A stretch of 56,310 nucleotides of DNA from Desulfofundulus salinus (lineage in GTDB: Bacteria > Bacillota > Desulfotomaculia > Desulfotomaculales > Desulfovirgulaceae), in assembly GCF_003627965.1 (NCBI RefSeq), contig NZ_RBWE01000001.1, positions 386,026 to 442,335 of the forward strand, in the 5' to 3' direction. The notes beneath the pieces were generated by a model. The model was not told where the DNA came from, made no database searches, and saw only the letters and a program-made list of their open reading frames with translations. Shown here piece after piece: positions 11,461 to 37,665 of the stretch. Every line of letters starts with the position of its first letter. Position 1 is the stretch's first letter. Position numbers and translations under genes: made by a program.

Positions 11461-11529
11461 TATGGAGAGGTTTTCAAGATAACCGGGTAATTGAGCGGTT
11501 TTTCAATAAGTCAGTCGGGAGAGATGTCC

Positions 11530-12060
11530 ATGCATTTAACGGAAGGAGAAAAAAGGGTTGCCTTAGAACAAACCGGGAACATCCTGGAAAGTTATTCCCG
11601 TGAACGGGGTAATCTTATTCCTATTTTGCAGCAGGTACAGGAAAAGCTGGGCTATGTGCCCCTGGTGGCCATGGAGGAAGTAGCGCGGCACCTGGGCATC
11701 CCACCCGTGGACGTTTACAGCGTGGCCACCTTTTACAACCAGTTTCGCCTCATTCCTCCGGGGAAACACCAGATCAAGGTATGCATGGGCACGGCCTGCC
11801 ACATGAAGGGGGGCAATATCATCCTGGACTGCTGGAAGAGACGGCTGGGCATTGACGTTAACGAGGTTACGCCGGACCGGGAATTCAGCCTGGAAAGGGT
11901 GGCCTGCGTGGGATGCTGCACCATGGCACCGGTAACGGTGATCGATGAAGAAGTGCACGGCAAGGTAACCCCCACCCGGGTGGACGGATTGCTCTTTTCC
12001 TTTGGCGTAAAAATCCCAAAAGGCCAGCAGAAAGAAGGGGAAGCAGTTGAACAGCAGTAG
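11530..12060 (+). CDS. NuoE/HndA-type [2Fe-2S] subunit of a NADH-dependent oxidoreductase
   Basis: 176 residues. Thioredoxin-like [2Fe-2S] subunit of the NuoE 24-kDa family: helical N-terminus (LIPILQQVQEKLGYVP), then VCMGTACHMKGG and RVACVGCCTMAPV supplying the four cysteines (C-x4-C ... C-x3-C). Such subunits pair with a NuoF flavoprotein in NAD(P)-linked hydrogenases, formate dehydrogenases and electron-bifurcating complexes. The frame is open from TTG 11491; ATG 11530, behind GGGAGAG, gives the best spacing (ATG 11524 is the alternative). Its end overlaps the next start by 14 bases. Confidence 0.9.
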   Translation: MHLTEGEKRVALEQTGNILESYSRERGNLIPILQQVQEKLGYVPLVAMEEVARHLGIPPVDVYSVATFYNQFRLIPPGKHQIKVCMGTACHMKGGNIILDCWKRRLGIDVNEVTPDREFSLERVACVGCCTMAPVTVIDEEVHGKVTPTRVDGLLFSFGVKIPKGQQKEGEAVEQQ

Positions 12061-13957
12061 TATAGTGGCAGAAACTTTTGCAAAATTACAACAAAAATCC
12101 AGGACTGCCTGGCAGAGCCTGCGGGACCGGCCCCTGATTCTGGTGGGCACGGCCACCTGCGGCCGCGCAGCCGGGGCCCTGGAGATTTTAAAGGTAATTA
12201 AAGAAGAGCTTGAAAAACACGGCATTGACGCCCAGGTCCTGGAAGTGGGCTGCATGGGCCATTGCTATGCGGAACCCCTGGTAACCGTTTACAAGCCCGG
12301 TTTCCCACCCATCAGCTACGGCTACGTTACCGAGGGCATTGCCGGCCGGCTGGTGCAGGATTTTTTAGGCGGTGACGACCCCTGCCTGGAATTTGCCCTG
12401 GCCGCGCTGGAGACCAACGATATGGTTCCGGCCCTCACCGACTTTCCCCGGGGAATGATTGAAAAGCCCATTATTCTGGACAAGTGTGGTCTAATTGACC
12501 CTGAGCAGATCGAGCACTACATCGCCCTGGGCGGGTATGCCGCCCAGGCCAGAGCCCTGACCCGGGAGCCTGAATGGGTGGTTGAAGAAATAAAAGCTTC
12601 TGGCCTGCGGGGGCGGGGTGGGGCCGGTTTCCCCACCGGGCGCAAGTGGGAAACCTGCCGTTTGGCGCCGGGGGAAAAGAAGTATGTCATTTGCAACGCT
12701 GACGAAGGGGACCCGGGGGCCTTTATGGACCGGGCCATCCTGGAGTCAAACCCCCACGAGGTGCTGGAGGGGCTGGCCATTGCCGCCTACGCGGTGGGAG
12801 CCCGCCAGGGCTATTTCTATATCCGCGCCGAGTATCCCCTGGCCGTGGAAAGGGTGAAAAAGGCCATCGAACAGGCGCGCCAGGCCGGCCTTTTAGGGAC
12901 CAATATCCTGGGCAGCGGTTTTAGCTTTGACGTGGATGTTTTTCAGGGTTCGGGGGCCTTTGTTTGCGGCGAGGAAACGGCCCTGATCGCCTCCATGGAA
13001 GGGGAGCCGGGCCTGCCCCGCCACCGGCCACCATTTCCGGCCACTGCCGGGTTGCGGGGCAGGCCCACGGTGATTAACAACGTAAAGACACTGGCCTACG
13101 TGCCCCATATCATTGAGCGGGGTGCCCAATGGTTCAGGGAGACCGGTACTGCCGGCAGCCCCGGTACAGCCGTCTTTGCCCTGGCCGGGAAAGTGATCAA
13201 TACCGGCCTGGCCGAGGTGCCCATGGGCACAACCCTAAGACAACTGGTTTATGACGTGGGCAGCGGTATTCCCAAAGGTAAGTCCTTTAAGGCCGTGCAG
13301 ATTGGCGGGCCGTCGGGAGGGTGCCTGCCTGAAGCGGCCCTGGATATGCCCATAGATTTCGACTCTTTAAGCCAGGCCGGGGCCATGATGGGTTCCGGCG
13401 GGATGGTCATCCTGGATGAGGACGATTGCATGGTGGAAATAGCCCGGTTTTTCCTGGATTTCACCCAGAAGGAATCCTGCGGCAAGTGCACCATGTGCCG
13501 CCTGGGAACCAGGCAGATGCTGGACATCCTGGAGGCAATTACAAAAGGACAGGGCAAACCCGGGGATATAGAGCTTCTTTTGGAACTGGCTGAAGATGTG
13601 AAGGCGGGTTCGTTGTGCGGGCTGGGTAAGACGGCGCCCAATCCCGTTTTAAGCACCATCCGCTATTTCCGGGACGAATACGAGGCCCACATCAAGGAAC
13701 GCCGTTGCCCGGCGCTGATGTGCCAGGAGTTGATTGCCTACTACATCCTGCCGGAAAAATGCGAGCGCTCCTGTGATGCCTGTGTGGGCAGCTGCCCGGT
13801 AGAGGCCATTTATACCAATGAGGACCGCGTTAAAGTTATAGACCAGCAAAAATGCGTCAAGTGCGCCAGCTGCCTGGAGGCCTGCCCGCCCCAGTACAAA
13901 GCGGTCGTCAAGCTCTCCCCGCCGGAACTGGTGGCCGAAAGGGGGCGTAAGGTATGA
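12047..13957 (+). CDS. NuoF/HndC-type NADH-oxidising flavoprotein
   Basis: 636 residues. Order: N-terminal thioredoxin-like [2Fe-2S] domain (GTATCGRAAGALE, EVGCMGHCYAEP; about 35-90); NADH/FMN domain with GLRGRGGAGFPTGRKWE and NADEGDPGAFMDR (about 185-230); SLBB; [4Fe-4S] site SCGKCTMCRLGTRQM (about 480); and two C-terminal [4Fe-4S] motifs (CDACVGSCPVEAI and CVKCASCLEACPP). This is the HndC/HydB layout rather than respiratory NuoF. It takes electrons from NADH through FMN into an Fe-S chain. TTG start at 12047 overlaps the first subunit. The physiological acceptor is not encoded next to it. Confidence 0.92.
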   Translation: MNSSSIVAETFAKLQQKSRTAWQSLRDRPLILVGTATCGRAAGALEILKVIKEELEKHGIDAQVLEVGCMGHCYAEPLVTVYKPGFPPISYGYVTEGIAGRLVQDFLGGDDPCLEFALAALETNDMVPALTDFPRGMIEKPIILDKCGLIDPEQIEHYIALGGYAAQARALTREPEWVVEEIKASGLRGRGGAGFPTGRKWETCRLAPGEKKYVICNADEGDPGAFMDRAILESNPHEVLEGLAIAAYAVGARQGYFYIRAEYPLAVERVKKAIEQARQAGLLGTNILGSGFSFDVDVFQGSGAFVCGEETALIASMEGEPGLPRHRPPFPATAGLRGRPTVINNVKTLAYVPHIIERGAQWFRETGTAGSPGTAVFALAGKVINTGLAEVPMGTTLRQLVYDVGSGIPKGKSFKAVQIGGPSGGCLPEAALDMPIDFDSLSQAGAMMGSGGMVILDEDDCMVEIARFFLDFTQKESCGKCTMCRLGTRQMLDILEAITKGQGKPGDIELLLELAEDVKAGSLCGLGKTAPNPVLSTIRYFRDEYEAHIKERRCPALMCQELIAYYILPEKCERSCDACVGSCPVEAIYTNEDRVKVIDQQKCVKCASCLEACPPQYKAVVKLSPPELVAERGRKV

Positions 13958-14610
13958 AAACAGTCACCTTAACCATAGATGGCCGGACCGTGCAGGCGCG
14001 GGAAGGGGAAAAGCTGCTCTGGGCGGCCCTGGAAAACGGCATCTACATCCCCAACCTCTGTGCCATTCCCGGGGCAAAACACCCGGCTGCCGCCTGCCGG
14101 TTGTGCTTTGTGGAGATCGAGGGCTACCCGCGCCCGGTGACCGCCTGCACCGAGCCCGTGGTGGAAGGCATGGTGGTGTCCACCCGCAGCCCGCGGGTGG
14201 ACCGCCTGGTACACACGGCCTTTGAGCTCCTTTTGTCCAATCACCACCTGGACTGCGCCAACTGCCCCCGCAACCGCTCCTGCGAATTGCAGCGGATTGC
14301 CCGGGAACGCCGCTTCCCCTTGCGGGTGAAGCGGTTGAGAAAGCTGGAACGGAACCTGCAAGTGGACGACTCCAGCCCGGTAGTGCGCTACGACCCCGGC
14401 AAGTGTGTCCTCTGCGGGCGGTGTGTGTGGGTGTGCCGGGAAAAAGGCACCGGAGTGCTGGGTTTTGCCCGGCGGGGGTTTGAGCGCAAAGTAACCACCT
14501 TTGGGGATGTTCCCCTTGGCCAATCGGGCTGCAACGGTTGCGGCGAATGTGTCAAAGTTTGTCCCGTGGGTGCCCTGACGGGAAGAGACTCCGCAGCCAT
14601 CTCAATATGA
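13954..14610 (+). CDS. NuoG/HndD-type N-terminal iron-sulfur subunit without catalytic domain
   Basis: 218 residues. [2Fe-2S] ferredoxin-like domain (cysteines in LCAIPG, CRLCFVEI and ACTEPV, about 30-65), the His-Cys [4Fe-4S] motif HHLDCANCPRNRSCELQ (about 92-108), then two [4Fe-4S] sites (CVLCGRCVWVCRE and CNGCGECVKVCPVGAL). The protein stops there, where HndD would continue into the H-cluster and FdhA into the molybdopterin domain. So it is a stand-alone electron-wire subunit. It overlaps NuoF by 4 bases. The final codons overlap the palindrome TCTCAATATGAGA that begins the duplicated kor leader, so the original 3' end may have been replaced. Confidence 0.88.
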   Translation: MKTVTLTIDGRTVQAREGEKLLWAALENGIYIPNLCAIPGAKHPAAACRLCFVEIEGYPRPVTACTEPVVEGMVVSTRSPRVDRLVHTAFELLLSNHHLDCANCPRNRSCELQRIARERRFPLRVKRLRKLERNLQVDDSSPVVRYDPGKCVLCGRCVWVCREKGTGVLGFARRGFERKVTTFGDVPLGQSGCNGCGECVKVCPVGALTGRDSAAISI

Positions 14611-14756: not shown

Positions 14757-14820
14757 TGCAGCCGGGATGGCTCAAGGCCCTGCCGCTTATTTCCCCAACC
14801 GCCAGCAATTACATAGGGCC

Positions 14821-14836
14821 TGGCACAACTCTTGCG
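14821..14836 (+). promoter_or_regulatory. Sigma-54 (-24/-12) promoter, copy 1
   Basis: TGGCACAACTCTTGCG fits the sigma-54 consensus TGGCAC-N5-TTGC, with GG at 14822-14823 and GC at 14834-14835 (GG-N10-GC). It faces only a 23-codon mini-ORF and the hdr scar, so it appears orphaned. The broken sigma-54 activator gene lies 240 bases downstream. Confidence 0.85.
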
Positions 14837-14861
14837 AGTATAATCAAAACTGTGCGAGGCA

Positions 14862-14933
14862 ATGGCTAAAGTTCCAGCCACCCCACAAGCTGTGAACATA
14901 GAACAAACAACATCAGTGCTTGACATGAAATAA
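14862..14933 (+). pseudogene. korD 5' remnant (23-codon mini-ORF)
   Basis: ATG 14862, behind GCGAGG, reads MAKVPATPQAVNIEQ, matching the start of intact korD (MANALAAPKAVNIEV). It then leaves homology and ends at TAA 14931-14933. None of the ferredoxin cysteines remain. It could still be translated from the sigma-54 promoter. Confidence 0.7.
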
Positions 14934-15036
14934 GGACGGTTACGGTATCCGGAAATAATTAAAGGAGCAGCCGGGAGATCATTCCACATTTATGCATGCA
15001 GTGCGATCCCCGGCCTTTATTGCTGGGGGCATAAAA
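14910..15036 (+). pseudogene. Collapsed hdrC-hdrB remnant
   Basis: Four blocks match the intact hdr locus in the same order: 14910-14968 to the hdrC leader (about 36301-36357, including TATCCGGAxATAA and AAAGGAG); a short block around CCGGG-GATCATT (36393 region); CATTTATGCATGCAGTGCG (hdrC codons for HLCMQCG, about 36443-36461); and CGGCCTTTATTGCTGGGGGC (end of hdrB, about 37627-37646). The roughly 1.3 kb of coding sequence is reduced to about 130 bases by internal deletions. Confidence 0.8.
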
Positions 15037-15077: not shown

Positions 15078-16702
15078 GTGTCCAGACTGGATCAGGTAAA
15101 AGAAGACTGCCAGCGGGCTGCCGAAGCCATTGCCGCCGCCCTGGGGGTCGAGGTTGAGGTAATCGACCTCGACCTGGTGCGGGTGGCCGGCACGGGCAAG
15201 GTGCGCAACGACGTGGGCTCCCGCCTCCTGCGGGGGTTTGTGAATAAGCATGTGCTCAAGACCAGCCAGCCCATTTTTATCAAAGAAGCAGGCTATCACC
15301 CCATCTGCATGTCCTGCCCCCTTACGGGAAGCTGTTTTTACAAAGCTTCCATCGTTTACCCCATCATTGCGGGGCAGAACGTCATCGGCACCATCAGCCT
15401 GATTGCCTTTAGCGACGAGCAAAAAGTAACCCTGCTTACCCGCACCGAATCTTTGATGGAATTTATCGGGCGCATGGCCGACCTGATCGCAGCCAAGGTC
15501 CTGGAAACCGAGGCCATGACCGAGAAAATGATCATGGCCAGCCAGGTCAACGCGGTCATGGATGCGGTGGGTGAGGGGGTCATTGCTATCAACAGCGAGG
15601 GGATGGTCACCCACTTCAACCTCTCCGCCGAACGGATGTTCAGCATTCCCAAAAACGAAATTCTGCACCAACGCCTGGAAGAACACTTAGCCGGCCTGCC
15701 CCTCCTCCAGGCCCTGCGCGAACCCGGAGGCTTTACTTCCCGGGAGTGTTTTGTCCAGGCCAGGGGGCGGCGGCTGCATCTTCTGGTTACGGCCCGCCCC
15801 ATAATGGGCAGCGACGGCCGGCCCGTAGGAGTGGTGGCCTCGGCCCGGGACTTCAAGGAAACCCAGAAGCTGGCCTATGAAATTATGAGAACTGCGGGGC
15901 CATACCGGAAACCCTGCTGGAAAGCGAACTGTTCGGCTATGAAGAAGGAGCCTTCACCGGTGCCCGTAAGGGGGGCAAACCGGGCAAGTTTGAGCTGGCC
16001 AATCACGGGACCATTTTCCTGGACGAAATTGGGAACATGTCCCTCTACCTGCAGGCAAAGCTTTTGCGGGTACTGCAGGAGCGCCAGGTAGAGCGCATTG
16101 GCGGCAATCGCCTGATCCCGGTGGATATACGCATCATTGCGGCCACCAACAGCAACCTGGAAGAAATGATTGCCAAGGGCCATTTCCGGGAGGACCTCTA
16201 TTACCGCCTGAGCGTTATCCCCCTGACCATACCCCCTTTACGGGAAAGGCCGGAGGATATCAAGCTGCTCCTGGAACACTACCGGGAGCACTATAACAAC
16301 CTTCTGGGCAAGAATATCCGCGGCTATACCCTCCAGGCGGAACGGGCCTGCCTTGCCTATAGCTGGCCGGGAAATGTGCGGGAGCTCATCAACGCCGTGG
16401 AATATGCCGTAAACCTGGAAGAAGGCAACCTTATTGATACCGGCAGCCTGCCCCGTGCGGTACAGGAAGGCGGTCACCGTATAGCAGAAATCCCCGGCCG
16501 CGAAAGCCGCTGGGTTACTTTAGAGCAGATGGAAAAGGAGGCCATCATCAGCGCCCTGGAACATTTCGGCTGGAACGAACAGGGCAAAACAAAAGCCGCC
16601 CGGGCGCTGGGCATAAGCCGGGCGACCATCTACCGCAAAATTGCCAAATATAACCTTTCCTCCCGCAGTGTCAGGGAAGCAATCACGGCTGAAAAACGTT
16701 AA
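15078..16702 (+). pseudogene. Sigma-54-dependent transcriptional activator, broken by deletion of the Walker A region
   Basis: Frame 1 (GTG 15078 to about 15889) encodes an N-terminal GAF-like sensor with a cysteine cluster ICMSCPLTGSCFY (about residues 75-87) and a PAS-like domain (AVMDAVGEGVIAINSEG). At 15888-15892 the frame jumps from ...KLAYEIMR straight to the AAA+ segment ([20 protein letters not shown]) in another frame. About 55-60 residues including the P-loop are missing. The rest of the AAA+ domain ([16 protein letters not shown]-finger region) and the Fis-type HTH ([17 protein letters not shown]) read cleanly to 16702. Without Walker A and in frame it cannot be a working activator. 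It was probably the cognate regulator of the kor sigma-54 promoter. Confidence 0.88.
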
Positions 16703-16866: not shown

Positions 16867-17148
16867 AGGTGCTTAAAGATTAAAGATACTTAAAGGTACA
16901 GTTGCAAAACCGCCTCCACCAAACTGAAGGTGACCCCCTGCAACGTTAATGATGCTGAACCACTGGTGTAAACATTACTCTGACCACGATATAGGGAGTG
17001 GCGGCGAAGTTGGTCAAGTTTCAGTATAGCTAATGAGGGGTTAGTCTGCCCTTTTTTGCCTGAAATGCTGGTAATAGGGAGGATGAAATGACAAAGGATA
17101 CCAGCTTTTCTCGGCATTTACATGTTAAGGAGGAGGTGTGTAGCAGGT
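16867..17148. other. Intergenic stretch before pxpA
   Basis: No gene recognised. A minus-strand open frame (17117-16890) has no family resemblance that I can see. The only functional signal is a strong Shine-Dalgarno site, AAGGAGGAGG, near 17127-17136. No convincing sigma-A promoter was found for the pxp operon. Confidence 0.4.
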
Positions 17149-17943: not shown

Positions 17944-17960
17944 GAGGGGAGCAGCTGGAT

Positions 17961-18761: not shown

Positions 18762-18782
18762 GGTTAGGAGGAAGAAAGAAAA

Positions 18783-20021: not shown

Positions 20022-20056
20022 AAACTGTTGCTAAGCTATTGAAATAAGATTGGAGG

Positions 20057-20088
20057 GCGCGCCTGCGGTTTAAAACCCGCTGGCGCGC
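20057..20088. other. Strong hairpin between the NRAMP-like gene and pxpB
   Basis: GCGCGCC (20057-20063) pairs with GGCGCGC (20082-20088), with an inner stem GCGG/CCGC. There is no T-tract, so it is more likely an mRNA stability or partial-termination element that sets pxpBC levels. Confidence 0.6.
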
Positions 20089-20120
20089 TTCATTCCTGAG
20101 TACAGCAGGGGGTGATAAAA

Positions 20121-20858
20121 GTGTATGACAGGCCCAGATTTCTTCCGGCAGGTGACAGGGCGATAGTGGTGGAATTCGGCAATGAAATTAATCCAGAAAT
20201 CAACCGGCGAGTGCGTAACCTGTACCTGGCTTTACAAAGGAGTGGTATTGGTGGGATAGGAGAAATGATTCCCACCTATCGTTCCCTGCTTATTTATTAT
20301 GACCCTATGCAGCTACCCCTGAACCAGTTGATCGATTATATTCAAGAAGTAGAAGCTGATATGGAACGGCTGAAATTACCCCACCCAAAGATTTATGTAA
20401 TACCGGTAATTTATGGTGGAGAATACGGCCCGGATCTGGAAGATGTAGCAAGATACAATCAACTTACACCCGGAGAAGTAATCCAGATTCATACCGCCAC
20501 TGATTATCTCATTTATATGCTGGGGTTCGCTCCTGGTTTTCCTTATCTGGGAGGGATGTCTTTGCGCATTGCCACCCCCCGTCTAAAAACACCTCGTACC
20601 CATATACCCGCCGGGTCGGTGGGTATTGCCGATAAACAGACAGGTATTTATCCCATAGATAGCCCTGGTGGGTGGCGGATTATTGGTCGCACGCCTGTAA
20701 AACTGTACGATCCTTACCGGGAGCCACCGGTTTTACTGTCGGCAGGCAACTATGTGAGGTTTGTCTCTATAACTGCCGAAGATTACCATAAGATAAAGGC
20801 AGCAGTGGAACAAAATACTTACACGCTCCAAGAGCTGCCTGTAGAGCTGGGGGGATAG
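20121..20858 (+). CDS. pxpB: 5-oxoprolinase subunit B (KipI family)
   Basis: 245 residues. AGDRAIVVEFGNEINPEINRR at the N-terminus, ATDYLIYMLGFAPGFPYLGG in the middle and PAGSVGIADKQTGIYPIDSPGGW near the C-terminus are KipI/allophanate hydrolase subunit 1 hallmarks. Partner of PxpC in 5-oxoproline opening; the Bacillus homologue KipI also inhibits the sporulation kinase KinA. GTG 20121 behind AGGGGGTGA is preferred over GTG 20112. PxpC follows after 7 bases. Confidence 0.93.
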   Translation: MYDRPRFLPAGDRAIVVEFGNEINPEINRRVRNLYLALQRSGIGGIGEMIPTYRSLLIYYDPMQLPLNQLIDYIQEVEADMERLKLPHPKIYVIPVIYGGEYGPDLEDVARYNQLTPGEVIQIHTATDYLIYMLGFAPGFPYLGGMSLRIATPRLKTPRTHIPAGSVGIADKQTGIYPIDSPGGWRIIGRTPVKLYDPYREPPVLLSAGNYVRFVSITAEDYHKIKAAVEQNTYTLQELPVELGG

Positions 20859-20865
20859 AAACTGC

Positions 20866-21897
20866 ATGGCTGTCTTGAAAGTGGAAAAGCCGGGCATGCT
20901 AACTACCATTCAAGATCTGGGGCGACATGGTTTTCAAGAATTCGGAATGCCGGTGGCTGGGGCGGCTGACGAGTTCTCTTTTAAATTAGCCAACATGCTG
21001 GTGAGGAACCGGCCAGAAGAGGCGGCTCTGGAATTAACCCTCGCAGGTCCTACTTTAAAGGTACTGGAAGAAGGAGTAATTGCCATTACCGGAGCTGATA
21101 TGGGACCCCAACTTAATGGCCGCCCGCTGGTGATGTGGGAAGCAGTACTGGTCTACCCGGGTGATGTGTTAAGTTTCGGGTGGTCCAGACAGGGGTGCCG
21201 TGCATACTTGGCTGTAGCTGGGGGTATAAACGTGCCGCCGGTAATGGGCAGCAAATCCACTTACCTGCGCGGAAGTATTGGCGGATTTGAAGGTAGGGCG
21301 CTAAGGGGGGGCGATATAATAAGCTCCGGAGTGCCTTCTTATCCACTGGATGAACTGGTTGGACGCAGTATCCCACCAGAGTATATATCATCCTATAACG
21401 GAAAATGGGAGGTAAGGGTAGTGCTGGGCCCTCAGGACGATTACTTCACGGCAAAGGGTATCCAGACCTTCCTCCAGAGTGAGTATAAAGTAACCCCCGA
21501 GTGTGACCGCATGGGATGCCGTTTGGAGGGTCCCCCCATTGAACATCAGAAGGGAGCAGATATAATTTCCGATGGGATACCTGCGGGTGCAGTACAGGTT
21601 CCCGGGCACGGTCAGCCCATTATTATGCTGGCCGATAGGCAGACCACGGGTGGTTATGCTAAAATAGCCACTGTCATCTCATCCGATTTATGGAAAGTAG
21701 CCCAGGCTAAGCCGGGTGATATTATCCACTTCCGGGCCGTTACCCTTCCCGAAGCTCATCAGGCCTACCGTATCTACCGGGAAAGGTTGCAGTCTCTTCC
21801 TACGGTAATTCAAATACTCTGGAACCGGAAGAAACATTATCGAATCCAGGTAAATGGTAAAATATACCGGGTATGTGTGGAAAAGATGGAATATTGA
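20866..21897 (+). CDS. pxpC: 5-oxoprolinase subunit C (KipA family)
   Basis: 343 residues. VEKPGMLTTIQDLGRHGFQ at the N-terminus, ALELTLAGPTL, ITGADMGPQLNG, YLAVAGGINVPPVMGSKSTY, SDGIPAGAVQVPGHGQPII and LMADRQTTGGY-like motifs place it in the KipA/allophanate hydrolase subunit 2 family. Acts with PxpA and PxpB. ATG 20866 is preceded by GGGGGATAG. The gene is intact; seven bases later the chimeric pseudogene region begins. Confidence 0.93.
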   Translation: MAVLKVEKPGMLTTIQDLGRHGFQEFGMPVAGAADEFSFKLANMLVRNRPEEAALELTLAGPTLKVLEEGVIAITGADMGPQLNGRPLVMWEAVLVYPGDVLSFGWSRQGCRAYLAVAGGINVPPVMGSKSTYLRGSIGGFEGRALRGGDIISSGVPSYPLDELVGRSIPPEYISSYNGKWEVRVVLGPQDDYFTAKGIQTFLQSEYKVTPECDRMGCRLEGPPIEHQKGADIISDGIPAGAVQVPGHGQPIIMLADRQTTGGYAKIATVISSDLWKVAQAKPGDIIHFRAVTLPEAHQAYRIYRERLQSLPTVIQILWNRKKHYRIQVNGKIYRVCVEKMEY

Positions 21898-21904
21898 ACT
21901 TTCA

Positions 21905-22249
21905 ATAATGGCACGGTCATGGAAATTTTTGCCCGGGCCATCCACGCCGCCAGCCCGCGGAAAAACAAGCCCTTTGTGGCCATCAACTGCGGGGCCATAC
22001 CGGAAACCCTGCTGGAAAGCGAACTGTTCGGCTATGAAGAAGGAGCCTTCACCGGTGCCCGCAAAGGGGGCAAACCGGGCAAGTTTGAGCTGGCCAATCA
22101 CGGGACCATTTTCCTGGACGAAATTGGGAACATGTTCCTCTACCTGCAGGCAAAGCTTTTGCGGGTACTGCAGGAGCGCCAGGTGGAACGCGTCGGTGGC
22201 AACCGCCTGATCCCTGTGGATATACGCATCATTGCGGCCACCAACATCT
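21905..22249 (+). pseudogene. Fragment of a sigma-54 activator AAA+ domain
   Basis: Reads through the AAA+ core from within Walker A ([44 protein letters not shown]) to RIIAATN. The bases before ATG 21919 (GGCACGGTCATGGAA) look like the G-T-G-K-E codons of a P-loop with two substitutions. From 21985 onward it is about 96% identical to the broken activator at 15890-16154. It has no sensor domain, no Walker A lysine and no HTH. Confidence 0.9.
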
Positions 22250-22352
22250 TCCGTACCTGGTACGTGAGGAGGGCCAGCGAACAAAAAGAAAGAACCATGG
22301 TCATACCCACGGCGGTATGGGCATCATAGGTCAACACCAGCAGGGGTACGAG
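22247..22352 (-). pseudogene. Fragment of a TauE/SafE gene fused to the sigma-54 fragment
   Basis: On the minus strand this encodes [20 protein letters not shown] followed by ALLTYQVRK. It matches the intact TauE/SafE gene (38368-38474, residues about 38-62) at roughly 90% identity. The junction with the sigma-54 fragment lies at ACCAAC/ATCTTCCG near 22244-22247. Only one transmembrane helix of the transporter remains. Confidence 0.88.
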
Positions 22353-22442
22353 AATCTTAGAGGGTCAGCCCGCAGGGTGTACCAGGCAGGGAAAAGTTGA
22401 TGTAACTGGGTCTAGAAGACGTTAAGCTGAAGGAGGTTGCAA

Positions 22443-28011: not shown

Positions 28012-28200
<189 letters not shown>

Positions 28201-28344
28201 TTTCCGGCGCCGGGTGCCTTCTCAATTTGAGATCAATGCCGGAAGTGTCGAATTTAGCGGTAATGCTGCCAGAGTTTACCCCGGCGTCGCAGAATGAGAC
28301 AGCTTTCCGTTTCGCTTTGAGATGAAATTCTGAAAAATGCTGCC

Positions 28345-28457: not shown

Positions 28458-28499
28458 TGTATAATCAAGTAAAGGTTCCAAACGCGCGAGGTGATGGCA

Positions 28500-28721
28500 A
28501 TGGCTAATGCTTTAGCTGCTCCAAAAGCTGTGAACATAGAAGTGCGCCAAAGCTGGTGCAAGGGGTGCGGGATTTGTGTTGCCCTTTGCCCCAGGGAAGT
28601 GCTCTCCCTGAATGGTTCGGGCAAGGTTGCGGTGGTGAATCCCGACCGCTGCGTTGGTTGCGGCCGGTGTGAAATCCACTGTCCGGACTTTGCCATCGGC
28701 ATAGAGGTGAAGGAACAATGA
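28500..28721 (+). CDS. korD: 2-oxoacid:ferredoxin oxidoreductase delta subunit (2x[4Fe-4S])
   Basis: 73 residues. Two complete [4Fe-4S] motifs, WCKGCGICVALCPREVL and CVGCGRCEIHCPDFAI. It carries electrons between the thiamine-diphosphate site of KorAB and ferredoxin. ATG 28500, with GAGGTGAT at 28488-28495, is preferred over ATG 28494. First gene of a delta-alpha-beta-gamma operon; overlaps korA by 4 bases. Confidence 0.92.
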   Translation: MANALAAPKAVNIEVRQSWCKGCGICVALCPREVLSLNGSGKVAVVNPDRCVGCGRCEIHCPDFAIGIEVKEQ

Positions 28722-29878
28722 GCGATGTGGTGGAAATGGCCCGCCTGATGCAGGGCAACGAGGCTGTGGTGGAAGGGGCCCTGGCGGCAGGGGTACGCTT
28801 TTTTGCCGGCTACCCCATCACCCCCTCCACGGAGATTGCCGAGCTGATGGCTGAACGCCTGCCCGGGTTAGGCGGTAAGTTCATCCAAATGGAAGACGAG
28901 ATCGCCAGTATGGCCGCGGTAATCGGTGCTTCCCTGGCCGGGGTGAAGGCCCTTACGGCCACCAGCGGGCCGGGCTTTTCGCTGAAGCAGGAAAACATCG
29001 GCTATGCGGCTATGGCTGAAATTCCCTGCGTGATTGTCAATGTGCAGCGCTGGGGTCCCAGTACGGGTATTCCCACCGCTCCCGCCCAGGGGGATGTAAT
29101 GCAGGCCAGATGGGGAACCCACGGCGATCACCCGGTTATCGTCCTCTGCCCTGCCTCGGTGCGGGAGGCGTACATGCTGGCCATCCGGGCAGTCAACCTA
29201 TCGGAAAAGTACCGGGTGCCGGTGATCCTGCTCATGGACGAAGTGATCGGTCACATGCGGGAACGTGTGGTGCAGCCCCATGCCGAAGAAGTGGAAGTAA
29301 TTGAGCGTAAAAAGCCGGCGGTGGAGCCAAAAGATTATTACCCCTACCGTCCCGGCGATGACGGTGTACCGCCCATGGCCAACTTCGGAGATGGTTACCG
29401 TTACCACGTAACGGGGCTGGTGCACGATGAAAAAGGCAATCCCACCACCGACCCTCAGGTTGCTGAAAGCTTAATTCTGAGGTTGCACCGGAAAATTTAC
29501 GATCATCTGGATGATGTGATTACCGTAGAGGGTTATCAACTGGAGGATGCGGAAATAGTTGTGGTCGCCTATGGTGCGGTGGCCAGATCGGCTAAACGGG
29601 CGGTCAAGGATGCCCGGGCGGCGGGTATCAAAGCGGGGCTGTTCCGGCCGGTAACCATCTGGCCCTTTCCGGAAAAAGAGGTAGCGGAACTGGCCGGCCG
29701 GGTGCGGCACATCATCGTGGCCGAAATGAACCTGGGCCAGCTCAAGGGAGAAGTGGAACGGGCGGTGCAGGGCCGGGTGAGGGTGACGGGGGTTAACCGG
29801 CTGAACGGGGAACTGATCACCTTTGACGAAATCCTGTCCGCCATCAAGGAGGTGACAACGGATGCTCAGTCAGGTTGA
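28718..29878 (+). CDS. korA: 2-oxoglutarate:ferredoxin oxidoreductase alpha subunit
   Basis: 386 residues. Pyrimidine-binding and hinge domains of the PFOR superfamily: MQGNEAVVEGALAAGVRFFA, GYPITPSTEIAELMAE, then TSGPGFSLKQENIGYA and VQRWGPSTGIPTAPAQGD, all characteristic of KorA. The C-terminal domain (about 280-380) is the transketolase-like C domain. Interconverts 2-oxoglutarate and succinyl-CoA + CO2 with ferredoxin; a different 2-oxoacid substrate cannot be excluded from sequence. Under the sigma-54 promoter. Overlaps korB by 17 bases. Confidence 0.92.
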   Translation: MSDVVEMARLMQGNEAVVEGALAAGVRFFAGYPITPSTEIAELMAERLPGLGGKFIQMEDEIASMAAVIGASLAGVKALTATSGPGFSLKQENIGYAAMAEIPCVIVNVQRWGPSTGIPTAPAQGDVMQARWGTHGDHPVIVLCPASVREAYMLAIRAVNLSEKYRVPVILLMDEVIGHMRERVVQPHAEEVEVIERKKPAVEPKDYYPYRPGDDGVPPMANFGDGYRYHVTGLVHDEKGNPTTDPQVAESLILRLHRKIYDHLDDVITVEGYQLEDAEIVVVAYGAVARSAKRAVKDARAAGIKAGLFRPVTIWPFPEKEVAELAGRVRHIIVAEMNLGQLKGEVERAVQGRVRVTGVNRLNGELITFDEILSAIKEVTTDAQSG

Positions 29879-30683
29879 ATCCCACCTGCGATCTGACCGG
29901 TTTCCCCATATCTGGTGTCCCGGTTGCGGCAACGGCATAGTTTTATCGGCGCTGGTCAGGGCCATTGAAGAGCTGGGGTACGACCCGGACAAAACCGTGG
30001 TGGTTTCCGGCATCGGCTGTTCCTCCCGGGCGGCGGGTTACCTGGATTTCAACACCCTGCATACCACCCACGGTCGTGCGCTGGCCTTTGCCACCGGTAT
30101 CAAACTGGCCAGGCCTGAACTGGATGTCTTTGTCCTGATGGGAGACGGCGACGCCACAGCCATCGGCGGCAATCACTTTATACACGCTGCCAGGCGCAAT
30201 ATAGACCTCACGGCCATCATTTTTAACAACAGCATCTATGGTATGACCGGGGGGCAATATTCACCCCTCACTCCTCCCGACAAAAGGGCAACTACCGCCC
30301 CCTACGGGAATATAGAGCGAAGCTTTGATATTGCCGAACTGGCTAAAGGTGCCGGCGCCACCTATGTGGCCCGGGCCACCACCTATCATGCCACCATGCT
30401 GGAAAAATTGATTGTGGCCGGAGCCAGAAACAAGGGCTTCAGCGTCATTGAGGCCATCACCGCCTGCCCGGTAGGATACGGGCGGCGCAACAAAATGGGC
30501 AACGGGCTGCAAATGCTTCTCTGGCAGAAGGAACATGCGGTAACGGTGAAACAGGCGGAAAAAATGAGCCCGGAGGAGCTGCAGGATAAAATAATCATTG
30601 GTGAGTTATACAGGGGGGAAGCTCCCGAATACACCGCCATGTACGAAGAAATCATTGCCAGGGCAAAGGGCAAAAACCGGTGA
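29862..30683 (+). CDS. korB: 2-oxoglutarate:ferredoxin oxidoreductase beta subunit
   Basis: 273 residues. Thiamine-diphosphate subunit: HIWCPGCGNGIVLSALVRAI at residues 14-33, TTHGRALAFATGIKLARP, the ThDP-Mg motif MGDGDATAIGGNHFIHAARR (G-D-G ... N) and NNSIYGMTGGQYSPLTPP. ATG 29862, with AAGGAGGTGACAACGG upstream. Forms the catalytic dimer with KorA. Confidence 0.94.
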   Translation: MLSQVESHLRSDRFPHIWCPGCGNGIVLSALVRAIEELGYDPDKTVVVSGIGCSSRAAGYLDFNTLHTTHGRALAFATGIKLARPELDVFVLMGDGDATAIGGNHFIHAARRNIDLTAIIFNNSIYGMTGGQYSPLTPPDKRATTAPYGNIERSFDIAELAKGAGATYVARATTYHATMLEKLIVAGARNKGFSVIEAITACPVGYGRRNKMGNGLQMLLWQKEHAVTVKQAEKMSPEELQDKIIIGELYRGEAPEYTAMYEEIIARAKGKNR

Positions 30684-30703
30684 GAGCAAAGGAGATGAGT
30701 AAA

Positions 30704-31261
30704 ATGTCCAGAACGATAGAATTCAGGTTGAGCGGTTCAGGTGGTCAGGGCCTGATCCTGGCGGGCGTTATCTTGGCCGATGCGGCCATCCGGGAGGGCA
30801 AAAACGCCGTGCAGGCCCAGTCCTACGGCCCGGAAGCCCGGGGTGGCGCCAGCAAGGCGGAAGTGATTATCAGTGACGGTGAAATTGATTACCCCAAGGT
30901 GGTCTTGCCCGATGTGGTGCTGGCCATGAGCCAGGAAGCAGCCAATAAATATGCCGCTCGTGTAAAAAAAGGAGGCCTTTTAATTGTTGACAGCACCTAC
31001 GTAAAAAATATACCGGCCACCCCGGGGCGGGTGTACGTTTTTCCCATCAGCCGCCTGGCCCGGGAAAAGGTGGGCAAGGAACTGGTGGCCAATATCGTGG
31101 CGCTGGGAATCCTGGCCGGACTGACCGGTGTTGTTTCCCGCCAGGTCCTGGAGCAGGCGCTGCTTTCCCGCATCCCCAAAGGTACCGAAACCTTGAATAT
31201 GCAGGCCCTGGAAGCGGGGTTTGAAATGGCGAAGGCCTCTTCGGTAAAGGTTCCGGCTTAA
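30704..31261 (+). CDS. korC: 2-oxoglutarate:ferredoxin oxidoreductase gamma subunit
   Basis: 185 residues. RLSGSGGQGLILAGVILADA (about 8-27), QSYGPEARGGASKAEVIIS and KGGLLIVDSTYV are gamma-subunit signatures of CoA-binding PFOR domains. ATG 30704 behind AAAGGAGATG is preferred over GTG 30680. Last gene of korDABC. Confidence 0.92.
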   Translation: MSRTIEFRLSGSGGQGLILAGVILADAAIREGKNAVQAQSYGPEARGGASKAEVIISDGEIDYPKVVLPDVVLAMSQEAANKYAARVKKGGLLIVDSTYVKNIPATPGRVYVFPISRLAREKVGKELVANIVALGILAGLTGVVSRQVLEQALLSRIPKGTETLNMQALEAGFEMAKASSVKVPA

Positions 31262-32763: not shown

Positions 32764-32905
32764 GCAGCGGGATAGTATGTCAGTGTCCCGTAATTAGGGT
32801 CGTCAACTGTAATATCTGCAATCGCCCAAGCGATCGGGCGGTGCGAGTAGATAGGTAGCCAGTTGTACGCCGGGCGTAAACGGTTACCTATTTTTTATTT
32901 TTAGA
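32764..32905 (+). ncRNA. Structured leader RNA with terminator, class not recognised
   Basis: After a TATAAT box, the RNA would form hairpin CGGGAT/GTCCCG (near 32767-32792), then a stem ATCTGC ... GTAGAT closing an inner CGCCC/GGGCG hairpin, and end in a terminator AGGTAGCC ... GGTTACCT followed by TTTTTTATTTTT (to about 32902). The layout (aptamer-like domain then terminator) is riboswitch-like. The only coding remnant behind it is a TRAP-transporter piece. I could not match it to a known class. Confidence 0.45.
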
Positions 32906-33012
32906 TTTTTGTTTGGTTTGGACTTTTACTTATATTCGTGCAGGGGGTGATGTTTAGGGAAAAGAGATGCAGAGAAAAAACTTTGGCAATTTAAAAGTCC
33001 ATCGGTAAACTG

Positions 33013-33096
33013 TTTATGGCTGGTGTGTTACCGGGCATTTTACTGGGCGGCGTACTCCTGATAACATCTATCATTTATGCACGCATGAAAAATTAC
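33013..33096 (+). pseudogene. TRAP transporter large permease (DctM) C-terminal fragment
   Basis: Reads FMAGVLPGILLGGVLLITSI then IYARMKNY, matching the last helix of DctM-type permeases (pattern F-x-A-G-x-x-P-G-x-L-L-g). No other part of the transporter is present; the frame runs straight into the tnpA remnant. Confidence 0.55.
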
Positions 33097-33099
33097 GAC

Positions 33100-33455: not shown

Positions 33456-34373
33456 ATGAGGTTACTTCCAATTCCTGGACCCCTTAAATTGTGCCACGCG
33501 AAAAGTCGAGTAATGACAAGGGTTTCAGGGATCGCTGTCAAAGTCCAGTCCAACGGTTGGGGCAGAGAACCGCTGATGGTAAAGCTCCCTAAAAGGCTTA
33601 CCAACGCCGCAATCCTGCAAGCGCAACTGGTCTGGCACCGTAATCAATACTGGCTGCACGTAACCGTAGAGAAACCGGCCCTGTTAAAAGTTCAGGGCGA
33701 CGTTTGTGCCGCCATTGACCCGGGGGAAGTGCATGCCCTGAGCATCACCGACGGCGATGAAGCTCTGGTGATCAGTGGCAGGCTGCTTCGTTCGCTCAAC
33801 CGCTTGAGGAACAAGGTGCTGCGGCAGTTGCAACGAGCTATCTCCAGAACATCGAGCGGCTCCAGGAAGCGCAAGAAACTCCTGGCTAAAAAGTACCGGT
33901 TCCTCAACTGGATCGAGCGGCGGATAGAACATATTCTGCACAGTATTTCGGCCCAGGCCGTCCGCTGGTGCCTGGAAAAGTACGTCAAGGTGGTCTACAC
34001 CGGCAACCCGGAAGGCGTGCGCGAGAAAAACTGCGGCAAAAAGCACAATCAGCGCATGGGCCAGTGGGCCTTCGGCAAATTGCGCGCTTTGCTGGAATAC
34101 AAGCTCAAGCGTCACGGCATAGAGCTGATTCCGGTGGATGAGCGCGGCACTTCCGGTACCTGCCCGGTATGCGGGGAATATACCAAACAGACCGGACGCG
34201 TATTCCGGTGTGGAAATGCTTCCTGCGGGATTTCGGGTATCCACCGGGACGTGCTGGGAGCCAGCGGCATTTTGGATAAAGCTGTGAACGGAAATTTCAC
34301 TAAAGGCCGTAAGCTACCCGGAAAAGTGGAATACCTGCGGCCGCAGGTGCTGGCGCCGCAAAAAGCGGCATGA
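33456..34373 (+). CDS. tnpB: TnpB RNA-guided nuclease, N-terminally truncated
   Basis: 305 residues against about 370-400 for the family. The RuvC acidic residues appear kept: D in CAAIDPGEVHALSITDG (residue 88, where about 190 is usual), E in YTGNPEGVREKNCG, D in GIHRDVLGASGIL. The zinc ribbon CPVCGEYTKQTGRVFRCGN plus ASCG is intact. About 100 N-terminal residues (WED/REC part, which recognises the TAM and guide RNA) are missing or degraded upstream, where short stop-broken frames occur (33259-33440). So the RuvC half is preserved but the protein is probably not a full nuclease. Confidence 0.8.
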   Translation: MRLLPIPGPLKLCHAKSRVMTRVSGIAVKVQSNGWGREPLMVKLPKRLTNAAILQAQLVWHRNQYWLHVTVEKPALLKVQGDVCAAIDPGEVHALSITDGDEALVISGRLLRSLNRLRNKVLRQLQRAISRTSSGSRKRKKLLAKKYRFLNWIERRIEHILHSISAQAVRWCLEKYVKVVYTGNPEGVREKNCGKKHNQRMGQWAFGKLRALLEYKLKRHGIELIPVDERGTSGTCPVCGEYTKQTGRVFRCGNASCGISGIHRDVLGASGILDKAVNGNFTKGRKLPGKVEYLRPQVLAPQKAA

Positions 34374-34538
34374 CGTATCTACGACGAGTAGTAGACGCCC
34401 ATGGACCGGGCCTTCCCGGCAAGTGCCGGGATGTAGCTCACGAGGAAAGCGTAAGACCTGCGATTTTGCAGGCGGCTTTCCGATGACATGAGAAACCTTC
34501 GGGACGAAGCCCCCGGGCTTGTCCCGGGGGAGGTTCAC
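34374..34538 (+). ncRNA. Candidate omega RNA / right end of the IS605-type element
   Basis: The sequence after tnpB contains several hairpins, ending with CCCCCGGG (34511-34518) paired to CCCGGGGG (34523-34530) and the end motif AGGTTCAC (34531-34538), the common right end of tnpB elements in this bacterial group. In such elements the 3' region gives the guide RNA scaffold and the flanking host sequence supplies the guide. Here the flank is the aconitase gene start (GGCTACAATCTCACC). Confidence 0.65.
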
Positions 34539-34539
34539 G

Positions 34540-35953
34540 GGCTACAATCTCACCCAGAAGATCCTGCTCAATCACCTGGTTTCCGGTACCCTGCAGCCGG
34601 GTCAGGAGATCGCCATCAGGATAGATCAAACTCTTACCCAGGATGCTACCGGTACCATGGCTTACCTGCAGTTTGAGGCTATGGGCATCCCCCGGGTCAA
34701 AACCGAACTTTCTGTATCTTACGTGGATCATAATACCCTGCAGACCGGCTTTGAAAACGCCGACGACCACCGGTTTTTACAAAGTACGGCGGCTAAATAC
34801 GGGGCTTATTTCTTCAGGGCGGGTAACGGCATCTGCCACCAGGTTCACCTGGAAAGGTTCGGCGTACCCGGCAAAACCCTGCTGGGATCGGACAGCCATA
34901 CCCCCACGGCCGGGGGCCTGGGCATGCTGGCCATTGGGGTGGGCGGTCTGGACGTGGCGGTGGCCATGGGCGGAGGTCCTTTCCATATGATTATGCCCAG
35001 GGTGGTCAACATCCGGCTGCACGGCCGGCTGGCGCCGTGGGCCACGGCCAAGGATGTGATCCTGGAGGTTTTACGCCGCCTTACCGTTAAAGTGCGCCTG
35101 CGGGCCGTGCATTGGCATGGGGCAGGCTCCCCCTTCCGGCGGGGTTTCGGTGCGCACCATCAACCGGAACTTCAAGGGGCGCAGCGGTACGGCCGATGCC
35201 CGGGTGTACCTGGCAGGCCCGGAAACCGCGGCAGCAACTGCCCTTACGGGCAGGCTGACCGATCCAAGGGAACTGGGTGACCCTCCGGTAATCGCGCTGC
35301 CTGAAAGATTCCATGTAGACGACCGCATGATTTTACCCCCTGCCGATAACTCGGATGACGTGGAAATCGTGCGCGGTCCAAACATAAAGCCCCTGCCGGT
35401 GGCTGAATCTCTACCCCGGAGCATACAGGGCCGGGTGCTCATTAAGGTAGGCGACAACATCACCACCGACCACATTATGCCGGCCGGAGCCAGGGTATTG
35501 CCCCTGCGTTCCAATATCCCGGCCATGGCCGAGTATGTTTTTGCCGCCGTGGATCCTTCTTTCCCCCGCAGAGCCAGGGAGGCCGGAGGCGGGATTATCG
35601 TGGGCGGGGAAAATTACGGCCAGGGCTCCAGCCGGGAGCATGCCGCGCTTGTTCCCATGTACCTGAGTGTGAAAGCCGTGCTGGCCAAATCCTTTGCCCG
35701 CATTCACCGGGACAACCTGATCAACTTTGGTATTCTGCCCCTTACCTTCATTGAGCCTGCAGATTACGACAGGTTGGAGCAGGACGACGTGCTGCAGATT
35801 GATCAGGTACACCAGGCCCTGCAAGAAGGAGCGGAACTGGAAGTTAAAAACGTCACCCGCAACATAACCTTTAAAGTCCGGGCGCAGCTAACGCCCCGGC
35901 AGGTGGAGATCATCCTGGCGGGAGGTTTGCTTAATCATACGCGCAGGGGTTAG
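34540..35953 (+). pseudogene. acn: Aconitate hydratase, 5'-truncated with internal deletion
   Basis: The frame from 34540 (GYNLTQKILLNHLVSGTLQP, DQTLTQDATGTMAYLQFEAM, GSDSHTPTAGGLGMLAIG) runs to RRLTVK near 35090. It then joins, in another frame, to [20 protein letters not shown], followed by [38 protein letters not shown] and [18 protein letters not shown], up to the stop at 35951-35953. About 230 residues are missing at the junction and the frame changes. The start codon and first few codons are replaced by the right end of the tnpB element. Would have interconverted citrate and isocitrate next to kor. Confidence 0.92.
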
Positions 35954-36037
35954 AACATGCGTAACTTGAAGTCAGCCGTGTAGCATTTAAGTTGATACCC
36001 ATGACGATTTTGGTCCTACCAACACAGGATGAAAATG

Positions 36038-36249
36038 GCTGCCGGTTTGCACGGAAGCGAGCGACCTTGAGCCGAGCAGATGCCAAACTTAGCGAGACCG
36101 AGGGCGGAGGCGGGGCCGAGGGCATGGATGCCCGAGGCCGGCCCCTGAGGCATGGATGCCGAATGGGCCGGGAACCCCGCCGGAGCCTGAGGTCGAGCGC
36201 TAGTTTTGGCCTGCGAGGCGAACGGAGCGAGCGCGTGCAAACGGCAGGC
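36038..36249. repeat. MITE-like element with terminal inverted repeats
   Basis: GCTGCCGGTTTGCACG (36038-36053) is the inverted complement, with two mismatches, of CGTGCAAACGGCAGGC (36234-36249). The 212-base interior is GC-rich, has GCGAGCGA/GGAGCGAGCGC arms and two GGCATGGATGCC-type palindromes (about 36122 and 36149), and no coding capacity. Second copies are not seen in this window. Confidence 0.6.
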
Positions 36250-36368
36250 AAGTGCTATTTTCTCGGGATAGAGTTACCTGCCGAGTCTTGACACCAGAGA
36301 TCATCAGTTCTTGGCATGAGATAAATACGGAACGTTATCCGGAGATAACTAAAGGAGCCCGATGCACA

Positions 36369-36770
36369 ATGGCTATGGAACTATCAAACAAAATGAGCCG
36401 GGGAATCATTGAGCGGATTAAGGAAATTAGCGGGCAGGATCCGCATTTATGCATGCAGTGCGGCACCTGCAGTGCGGGATGTACGGGCAGGGAGGTCATG
36501 GAACTGTTACCCCGGCAGGTCATGCGCCTGATCCAGCTGGGTGACGCCCGAGTCCTGCACTGCCGCTCCATTTGGGTCTGCAGCACCTGTTTGCTCTGTA
36601 CGGCCCGCTGCCCGCGGGGTATAGATCTGGCCCGGTTAATGGAAGCTCTACGGGTAATCAACCTGCGTTCGGGCAGGGAAGTGCTGGTGGCCGAAAAAAT
36701 ACCGGTGGAATTGCTCACCCGGGTTCCCCAGATGGCCTTGACCAGTGGTATGCGCAAGCTGAGCGCTTGA
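36369..36770 (+). CDS. hdrC: HdrC-like iron-sulfur protein
   Basis: 133 residues. Two [4Fe-4S] motifs: HLCMQCGTCSAGCTGREV (about 27-44) and VCSTCLLCTARCPRGIDL (about 73-90), the order and length of heterodisulfide reductase subunit C. Electron-transfer partner of HdrB. ATG 36369 lies 11 bases after AAAGGAG (36351-36357). The leader is shared with the scar at 14910. No hdrA is adjacent, so electrons may come from another flavoprotein such as the NuoEFG-like module (inference). Confidence 0.9.
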   Translation: MAMELSNKMSRGIIERIKEISGQDPHLCMQCGTCSAGCTGREVMELLPRQVMRLIQLGDARVLHCRSIWVCSTCLLCTARCPRGIDLARLMEALRVINLRSGREVLVAEKIPVELLTRVPQMALTSGMRKLSA

Positions 36771-36786
36771 AAAGGGGGGCATAGGG

Positions 36787-37665
36787 ATGAAAATACCATA
36801 CTTTCCGGGATGTACGCTATACAATAAAGCAAGAGGTCTGGATAATTCTACCCGGGCCTCCCTGGCCGCTCTGGGGGTGGAACTGGCCGAGCTGCCCCGG
36901 TGGACCTGCTGCGGAACGGTGTTTCCCCTGGCCCGGGATAATTACATGGGCATGGTCGCAGCGGCGCGTATTTTGGCCGGTGTCGCCGGAGAAGGAGAAG
37001 ACAGGCTGCTTACGGTATGCTCCTTCTGCTATAACGTTCTAAAACGGGTAAATTATGAAATGCAACATAATTTAGAGGCCAGGCAAAAGCTCAATAATTA
37101 CTTAGAAGAAAATTATACCGGGGAAATACAGGTGGTCCATCCACTGGAAATTTGCAAGGAACACGTGGGGTTTGACGCCATTCGGGCCAGAGCGGGCCGC
37201 AACCTGAAAGGGCTTAAAGTGGCCTGTTATTACGGTTGCATGCTTGTGCGGCCTGCTCTGGAGATGGGTTTTGACGATCCGGAAAACCCCACCATCATGG
37301 AAGAGCTGGTCGCCGCCCTTGGCGCAGAAGTGGTGGAATACCCCCATAAAACAACCTGCTGTGGTTCCTACCAGGTGCTGCACGAAAATGACCTGGTGAT
37401 GCAAAGGGTACAGGACATTCTCAACTCCGCCGTTGCTAAAGGGGCAGAAGCAATCATCACCAGTTGCCCCTTGTGCCAGTTTAACCTGGACTGGCTGCAG
37501 GAAAAAATCCTGGAACAAGACACCGGCTTTCGCCAAATTCCCGTTCTGTATTTCACCCAGCTTCTGGGGGTGGCCCTGGAACTCCCCCGGGAAAGCCTGG
37601 GACTGGAGCAGCATTACGTAGACCCCCGGCCTTTATTGCTGGGGGCTATGCCTCATCTTCGCTAA
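36787..37665 (+). CDS. hdrB: HdrB-like CCG-domain protein
   Basis: 292 residues. Two CCG domains: PYFPGCTLYNKARGLD ... PRWTCCGTVFPLA ... TVCSFCYNVLKR (about 4-90) and CYYGCMLVRPALEMG ... TTCCGSYQVLHEN ... ITSCPLCQFNLDW (about 145-240), providing cysteines for the noncubane clusters that reduce disulfides. The substrate in bacteria lacking CoM/CoB is unknown. Ten bases of spacing after hdrC and a Shine-Dalgarno site AAAAGGGGGG. Confidence 0.9.
   Translation: MKIPYFPGCTLYNKARGLDNSTRASLAALGVELAELPRWTCCGTVFPLARDNYMGMVAAARILAGVAGEGEDRLLTVCSFCYNVLKRVNYEMQHNLEARQKLNNYLEENYTGEIQVVHPLEICKEHVGFDAIRARAGRNLKGLKVACYYGCMLVRPALEMGFDDPENPTIMEELVAALGAEVVEYPHKTTCCGSYQVLHENDLVMQRVQDILNSAVAKGAEAIITSCPLCQFNLDWLQEKILEQDTGFRQIPVLYFTQLLGVALELPRESLGLEQHYVDPRPLLLGAMPHLR

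Follow-up and report, generated by a model that had tools for sequence, protein, structure and literature searches.

An hdrCB pair without hdrA in Desulfofundulus salinus as the probable remainder of a fumarate reductase-type gene cluster

The stretch of 56,310 nucleotides analysed here (the window) belongs to the Desulfofundulus salinus genome (G000; 2.89 Mb, 99.98% complete, a draft in 10 contigs) and lies inside a contig of 2.86 Mb. It carries an hdrC-hdrB pair of the heterodisulfide reductase type with neither hdrA nor any other flavoprotein gene beside it. This had been recognised in the initial annotation, and both genes are indeed intact; the NADH-oxidising module reported from the same window is also present, as is the duplicated flank said to be shared with hdrC. 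The features are given below in window coordinates, followed by a related operon of the same genome; loci and genomes are cited by L and G numbers.

11491..14610, + strand: NuoE/NuoF/HoxU-like NADH module, with NuoF of the HydB/NfnB type, at the head of the ancestral run (family models and relatives)
14858..15030, + strand: fossil after nuoG (alignment to relatives and to window copies), made up of the start of a korD-like gene for a ferredoxin (14858-14903), an hdrC leader (14911-14968) followed by scraps of hdrC, and the last 26 nt of hdrB (15005-15030)
15078..16702, + strand: PAS/sigma-54-activator gene in two frames, lacking 196 nt at 15889/15890 when compared with L032
28216..28541, + strand: second occurrence of the sequence that follows nuoG (first at 14596-14903), at the join of an inferred tandem duplication
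28494..31261, + strand: korD-like ferredoxin gene (28494-28721), korA, korB and korG, the 2-oxoacid:ferredoxin oxidoreductase of the ancestral run
32791..33097, + strand: two short remnants of the stretch between MFS and dctM of relatives (matching L109 9339-9541 and 11707-11808)
33456..34373, + strand: IS605-type TnpB, where relatives have prpF-idh-frdBA
34534..35953, + strand: aconitase gene (acn), broken; compared with the orthologue it lacks 506 nt at 35090/35091
36369..36770, + strand: hdrC-like subunit, 133 aa, two 4Fe-4S clusters, intact (family models and cysteines)
36787..37665, + strand: hdrB-like subunit, 292 aa, two CCG domains, intact (family models and cysteines)
C1:1785960-1789566 (L008 8961-12566): paralogous operon hdrC-hdrB-frdB-frdA, 1.4 Mb from the window, its HdrB 81% identical to that of the window

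The best NCBIfam model for the window HdrC is TIGR03290 (HdrC, E 3.3e-17) and the window HdrB matches TIGR03288 (HdrB, E 2.6e-54), both below the curated cut-offs. HdrB contains two PF02754 CCG stretches that exceed the Pfam cut-off (E 4.7e-24), and it matches five solved HdrB sequences (E 1.9e-45 to 4.1e-36) as well as the SdhE model NF042965 (E 1.5e-51, below the model cut-off). All ten CCG cysteines of HdrB (9, 41, 42, 78, 81, 151, 191, 192, 227 and 230) and all eight ferredoxin cysteines of HdrC (28, 31, 34, 38, 71, 74, 77 and 81) are invariant relative to the four other copies of the genome. The pair has the two CCG motifs of HdrB and the two 4Fe-4S motifs of HdrC that characterise HdrABC; the HdrA that is adjacent to or co-encoded with HdrCB in that system is missing, as no hdrA adjoins it.

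The four further full-length HdrB copies of this genome, besides which there are two weak partial matches, comprise the 81% identical one at C1:1.786 Mb and three that are 28-43% identical, at C1:1.805, 1.881 and 2.708 Mb, each with its own HdrCB. It had been suggested that hdrA and mvhD be sought elsewhere in the genome, and both are found: genes for HdrA-like proteins lie near all three distant HdrB loci (HdrA2 is the best model, with E 4e-153 to 0 and scores below its cut-off; the distance to hdrC in L011 is about 1.8 kb), and there are 8 sites with an MvhD domain. In-frame TGA codons, likely specifying selenocysteine, are seen within an HdrA (L010 10770-10772, CSA-TGA-I) and within MvhD (SG/GG-TGA-HPGDCHY in L014 and L015, CCHY-TGA-AY in L017); a fourth MvhD (L016) was also flagged with TGA.

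The origin of the pair is best approached through its relatives. In G002 (3601386 bp), which we take to be D. kuznetsovii, and in G005, D. thermosubterraneus (L033; NZ_FQZM01000018.1, 78636 bases), the genes nuoE-nuoF-nuoG-korA-korB-korG-MFS-dctM(TRAP)-prpF-idh-frdB-frdA-acn-hdrC-hdrB form one co-directional run. G004 and G006 have the same run as far as the stretches examined reach (frdB and frdA, respectively), and L043 of G008 and L045 have dctM-prpF-idh-frdBA-acn-hdrCB, nuoEFG-korAB lying on a different contig from hdrCB in G008. The order frdB-frdA-acn-hdrC-hdrB is common to L033, copy A of G002, L043 and L045. The presence of prpF, idh, acn, kor and TRAP suggests that the cluster may have served tricarboxylate use or a branch of the TCA cycle. 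Copy B of hdrCB in G002, nearly identical to copy A (hdrB dS 0.024), ends an operon with succinyl-CoA-ligase-type, prpD-type, third frdB and frdA, and fumarase genes and with an additional FrdA-like flavoprotein adjoining hdrC; the third FrdA (L106 8762-10392) is split between two frames. Other relatives retain less of the run. G003 retains NuoEFG, acn, fragments of frdA and hdrB and the hdrC leader, and G001 retains NuoEFG, kor, acn and a trace of sequence like the 3' end of hdrB, with no frdBA match. In G007 no HdrB was matched at E<=1e-100, and its NuoEFG is followed by neither kor nor hdrCB within 12.9 kb downstream. NuoEFG directly adjoins korAB in seven of the eight other genomes of the family, and it stands beside hdrCB in none of the stretches examined from those eight.

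The window locus appears eroded relative to this run. The alignment of acn to L033 covers 34539-35090 and 35091-35965, and the loss of the 506 nt between them breaks the reading frame. No match to prpF, idh or frdBA was found between the MFS gene and acn, and the two remnants at 32791..33097 correspond to sequence of L109 that precedes its dctM match, which starts at 11874. Past a 329-nt insert before hdrC, hdrCB and tauE align to L033 through 38579. This G+C-rich insert (35966-36294), absent at that point in L033, lies between acn and hdrC, and parts of it recur at L008 3320-3461 in this genome and at L106 3660-3935 in G002. When the lost FrdA (FrdA2) was queried against the whole genome, the best match was only its 58% identical paralogue FrdA1, indicating that an FrdA2-type protein is absent from this 99.98% complete genome; the remaining aconitases are 38-40% identical to the window acn. 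It is very likely, as part of the explanation developed below, that the window hdrCB is the intact remainder of a cluster that lost frdBA.

The flank shared with the NADH module appears to have the same origin. The stretch 14911-14968 aligns with the window hdrC leader at 36302-36358 and agrees with the orthologous leader of D. thermosubterraneus in 57 of 58 bases, and 15005-15030 is identical to the hdrB 3' end in 25 of 26. The fossil runs from the start of the ferredoxin gene through the hdrC leader and the hdrB tail to the regulator, and in L032 the PAS/sigma-54-activator gene likewise comes after hdrB. By its order of parts, the duplicated flank is evidently what deletions have left of a second hdrCB. 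A functional promoter or leader common to the NADH module and hdrC was considered and rejected, the stretch being a chain of deletion scraps. The simplest reading of the gene order, with no intermediate seen, is that the run was duplicated in tandem and that the two copies then lost complementary parts, which would be why the NADH module and hdrC share a flank. Copy 1 would have lost nearly everything from the korD-like gene to the hdrB end, and copy 2 the part from TRAP to frdA at the TnpB element together with the 506 nt of acn. Just before the duplication join, at 28096-28214, there is a fragment of a group II intron (RF02001, 51 bits), and sequence matching the intron (to window 28165) is also found after fprA in G003 (L111 18375-18654, contig end); thus intron copies may have mediated the rearrangement. 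Between the two modules, a second partial copy of the PAS/sigma-54-activator gene at 21910-22246 is followed by a tauE fragment (22224-22355). Genes for a pxpABC-type 5-oxoprolinase, D-glutamate cyclase and an Nramp transporter occupy 17122-21897, and in G008 pxpABC adjoin korAB and the same regulator as in the window.

The partner of this HdrB type was sought by scanning named genomes with two HdrB sequences, which gave 68 loci; as two short patterns were used, loci may have been missed. Among the 15 loci outside this genome with HdrB identity of at least 63%, 13 have FrdA 0.7-2.6 kb away and the other two meet contig ends (L032 on a contig of 3.7 kb, L046 where the contig stops at the match), and HdrA is present in a single one (L039, 5.8 kb off). 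The 53 more distant loci have HdrA in 49 cases and FrdA in 12, within the stretches examined, and in L058-L065 FrdA, HdrCB and HdrA occur together. In an HdrB tree of 73 rows (short search without bootstrap; partial L099 dropped, L009 not included), the window falls inside a 19-row clade with SH-aLRT 97, which consists of 15 FrdA-linked rows, one row with both partners, the two contig-end rows and the window itself. Of 41 HdrA-labelled rows, 28 form a separate clade that includes this genome's own L010 and L011; the deepest split leaves the other 13 on the same side as the window, which counts against FrdBA as the partner, yet they are outside the 19-row clade. Taken together, the partner that goes with the window HdrB clade is most likely FrdBA, rather than HdrA or NuoF, and the 15 close loci and the tree make HdrA unlikely as the missing one. 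The expectation that electrons enter through an HdrA-type or NADH-oxidising flavoprotein is therefore not borne out.

FrdBA of the paralogous operon (FrdB1 and FrdA1, C1:1.787 Mb) would be the only such partner left in this genome for the window pair. Both FrdA1 and FrdA2, which lie outside the window, keep the QxHPTG/TE/RG/HY/NRLxGNS site residues in alignment to solved SdhA 7d6v; the His of QxHPTG, Glu of TE, Arg of RG, His of HY and Arg of NRLxGNS are what we take to be the dicarboxylate-site residues of succinate dehydrogenase. In the HT-AEGG motif both have Asn where 7d6v has a His, presumably its covalent flavin ligand, although covalent FAD is typical rather than strictly defining for SQR flavoproteins. 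No Succ_DH_flav_C domain was found in either, L-aspartate oxidases are the solved proteins that match them best after SdhA, and the best NCBIfam model of FrdA1 is TfrA (E 9e-103, below cut-off). Given the prpF and TRAP neighbours, a tricarboxylate-related compound is possible as the putative substrate of the flavoprotein. FrdB2 matches both a 2Fe-2S and a 4Fe-4S dicluster domain, and FrdB1 the 4Fe-4S dicluster domain, its 2Fe-2S motif having been read by eye. On the TfrB model, FrdB, HdrC and HdrB of the paralogous operon align to positions 17-162, 121-223 and 262-483 and the window HdrB to 262-475, all below cut-off; TfrB was not listed for the window HdrC. A membrane anchor was rejected, as 19-residue hydropathy windows above 1.6 are absent from window HdrC, window HdrB, FrdB1 and FrdA1, compared with 54 in the TauE control. 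The lack of such peaks in the four proteins, together with the family matches, points to a soluble or peripheral FrdA-FrdB-HdrC-HdrB chain as the best reading.

According to these data, we consider it very probable that HdrCB makes up the iron-sulphur/CCG part of a fumarate reductase/succinate dehydrogenase with four subunits (FrdA-FrdB-HdrC-HdrB), which would in effect be a thiol:fumarate reductase with TfrB split into three proteins. As judged from the families, the electron path would have the FAD of FrdA at one end and, at the other, the two CCG sites of HdrB as the place of reaction with a thiol/disulfide or a quinone; in between would lie the clusters of FrdB (2Fe-2S and 4Fe-4S) and of HdrC (two of the 4Fe-4S type). 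The genes of the module would have closed a cluster of the TCA type (nuoEFG-kor-MFS-TRAP-prpF-idh-frdBA-acn-hdrCB), and in this genome the region would have been duplicated in tandem and then eroded, leaving the window hdrCB either as a spare pair of subunits for FrdBA of the paralogous operon or as an early relict.

The substitution pattern is compatible with both outcomes. Compared with four orthologues, the window hdrB has a dN/dS of 0.13-0.16, whereas orthologue pairs from different genomes give 0.09-0.13 and the two copies in G002 give 0.06; the values of hdrC are 0.13-0.27, with 0.12-0.14 among orthologues. Nonsynonymous/synonymous counts at private codons, all of them small, are 7/8 in the window hdrB versus 4/10, 3/14 and 2/4 in relatives, and 4/4 in the window hdrC versus 2/4, 1/5 and 0/2. 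Six of the seven private HdrB changes are clustered in residues 126-137. The window departs at none of the columns invariant in 16 other rows (88 in HdrB and 48 in HdrC). The somewhat raised amino-acid change would fit a spare subunit pair for FrdBA1 as well as a recent relict, and a pseudogene in plain decay is not indicated, both frames being open and the invariant columns kept. Between the paralogous operon and G002/G005, dS is 0.30-0.37 for hdrB and 0.06-0.07 for frdA, which suggests that the hdrCB part was exchanged by itself; swapping of hdrCB seems to occur more freely than that of frdA.

The alternative nearest to this explanation is that HdrCB, although of fumarate-reductase origin, is already functionless and persists only because the loss of frdBA is recent. 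We give it somewhat less than an even chance, and it overlaps with the preferred explanation as one of its two outcomes. The loss of frdBA, the broken acn and regulator, the erosion of the same cluster in G003 and G001 and the raised replacement rate with its concentration in one HdrB segment all favour a functionless pair, but no stop, frameshift or change of an invariant column has appeared and the dN/dS of hdrB to orthologues is 0.13-0.16. That the losses are assembly errors is hardly credible: the assembly is a draft, but the window is inside a single large contig of a nearly complete genome, FrdA2 is nowhere else in the assembly, and G001 and G003 are eroded too.

The two remaining alternatives supply a different source of electrons. 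It had been proposed that HdrCB is served by the NADH module at 11491-14610, the two forming a complex of Nuo-like and Hdr-like parts that connects NADH, ferredoxin and a thiol or menaquinone acceptor. Part of this stands, as G002 and G005 have both modules in a single ancestral run and, together with the fossil flank, this indicates a shared history. A joint complex is nevertheless very unlikely: NuoEFG adjoins kor, with korA directly after it in all but one of the eight other family genomes, and HdrCB adjoins FrdBA/aconitase; NuoEFG persists with neither kor nor hdrCB in the 12.9 kb downstream in G007, with only the hdrB 3' trace in G001 and with only the hdrC leader and hdrB fragments in G003; the common flank is a deletion fossil; and no NADH module was found around the paralogous hdrCB-frdBA operon (L008 5500-14500) in open frames of 110 aa or more. 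That FlxABCD-HdrABC adjoins genes for fumarate reductase in P. thermosuccinogenes and in tubeworm symbionts, according to the accessible portions of two reports (PMC7282089, PMC6315080), speaks for such a link. An HdrA encoded elsewhere (C1:1.80, 1.88 or 2.71 Mb) is an extremely unlikely partner; HdrA-like and MvhD proteins do exist in this genome, but each of these loci has its own HdrCB with an HdrB only distantly similar to that of the window, and the tree, in which L009 is not included, sets L010 and L011 apart from the window clade.

A wider version of the preferred explanation would see in the whole ancestral run one integrated machine or metabolon of sulfate reducers, in which HdrA-free FrdBA-HdrCB works with Kor and the HydB/NfnB-type NADH module. 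We regard this as improbable. If it were true, succinate would be oxidised (or fumarate reduced) against thiol/disulfide or menaquinone, NADH, ferredoxin and the thiol/quinone pool would meet in a TCA branch, and the window HdrCB would be a swappable electron outlet for the remaining FrdBA.

The four-subunit enzyme proposed here resembles the thiol:fumarate reductase TfrAB, reportedly of Methanothermobacter. In TfrAB, TfrB is one chain and the substrates are CoM-SH and CoB-SH. The likeness consists of an FrdA-like flavoprotein, of FrdB, HdrC and HdrB of the paralogous operon covering successive parts of TfrB, and of the lack of a hydropathy peak for a membrane helix in window HdrC/HdrB, FrdB1 and FrdA1; the differences are three genes in place of one fused chain and scores below the TfrA and TfrB cut-offs. 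HdrABC shares the HdrB family with its CCG motifs, but the window clade is FrdA-linked and lacks HdrA. Among the literature matches listed, in which subscription papers are mostly outside coverage, we recognised no description of the HdrA-free frdBA-acn-hdrCB cluster of Desulfofundulus.

In the available part of one report, the SdhE anchor of non-classical enzymes is HdrB-like, and the type E SQR/methylmenaquinol:fumarate reductase SdhABE has FrdA, FrdB with a 4Fe-4S dicluster and this SdhE (PMC2680327). Compared with SdhABE, the enzyme proposed here has an extra HdrC subunit and does not reach the SdhE model cut-off. HdrCB occurs beside QmoAB, without qmoC, in some Desulfotomaculum, and complete qmoABC is credited to D. 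kuznetsovii and Desulfovirgula thermocuniculi, as far as the accessible text of that study goes (PMC4149029); these are related sulfate reducers with HdrCB, but the partner there is QmoAB and here FrdBA/acn. The excerpts cited above for P. thermosuccinogenes and the tubeworm symbionts place FrdAB beside HdrABC and Flx (PMC7282089, PMC6315080), and here FrdBA and HdrCB likewise lie in one cluster with TCA genes (cf. L058-L065).

An HdrCB without HdrA in a sulfate reducer can be explained without a new complex, and the lesson is to consult the gene neighbourhood in relatives before proposing a partner. Moreover, the HdrA-free FrdBA-HdrCB of Desulfofundulus and its relatives would be a tractable model for linking succinate oxidation to thiols or quinones. 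Judged by its gene content, the parent cluster is of a known kind and the window pair is its apparent survivor; the cluster differs from the known FrdAB-Hdr systems in that no HdrA is seen in 14 of the 15 close loci and in that TfrB is split in three.
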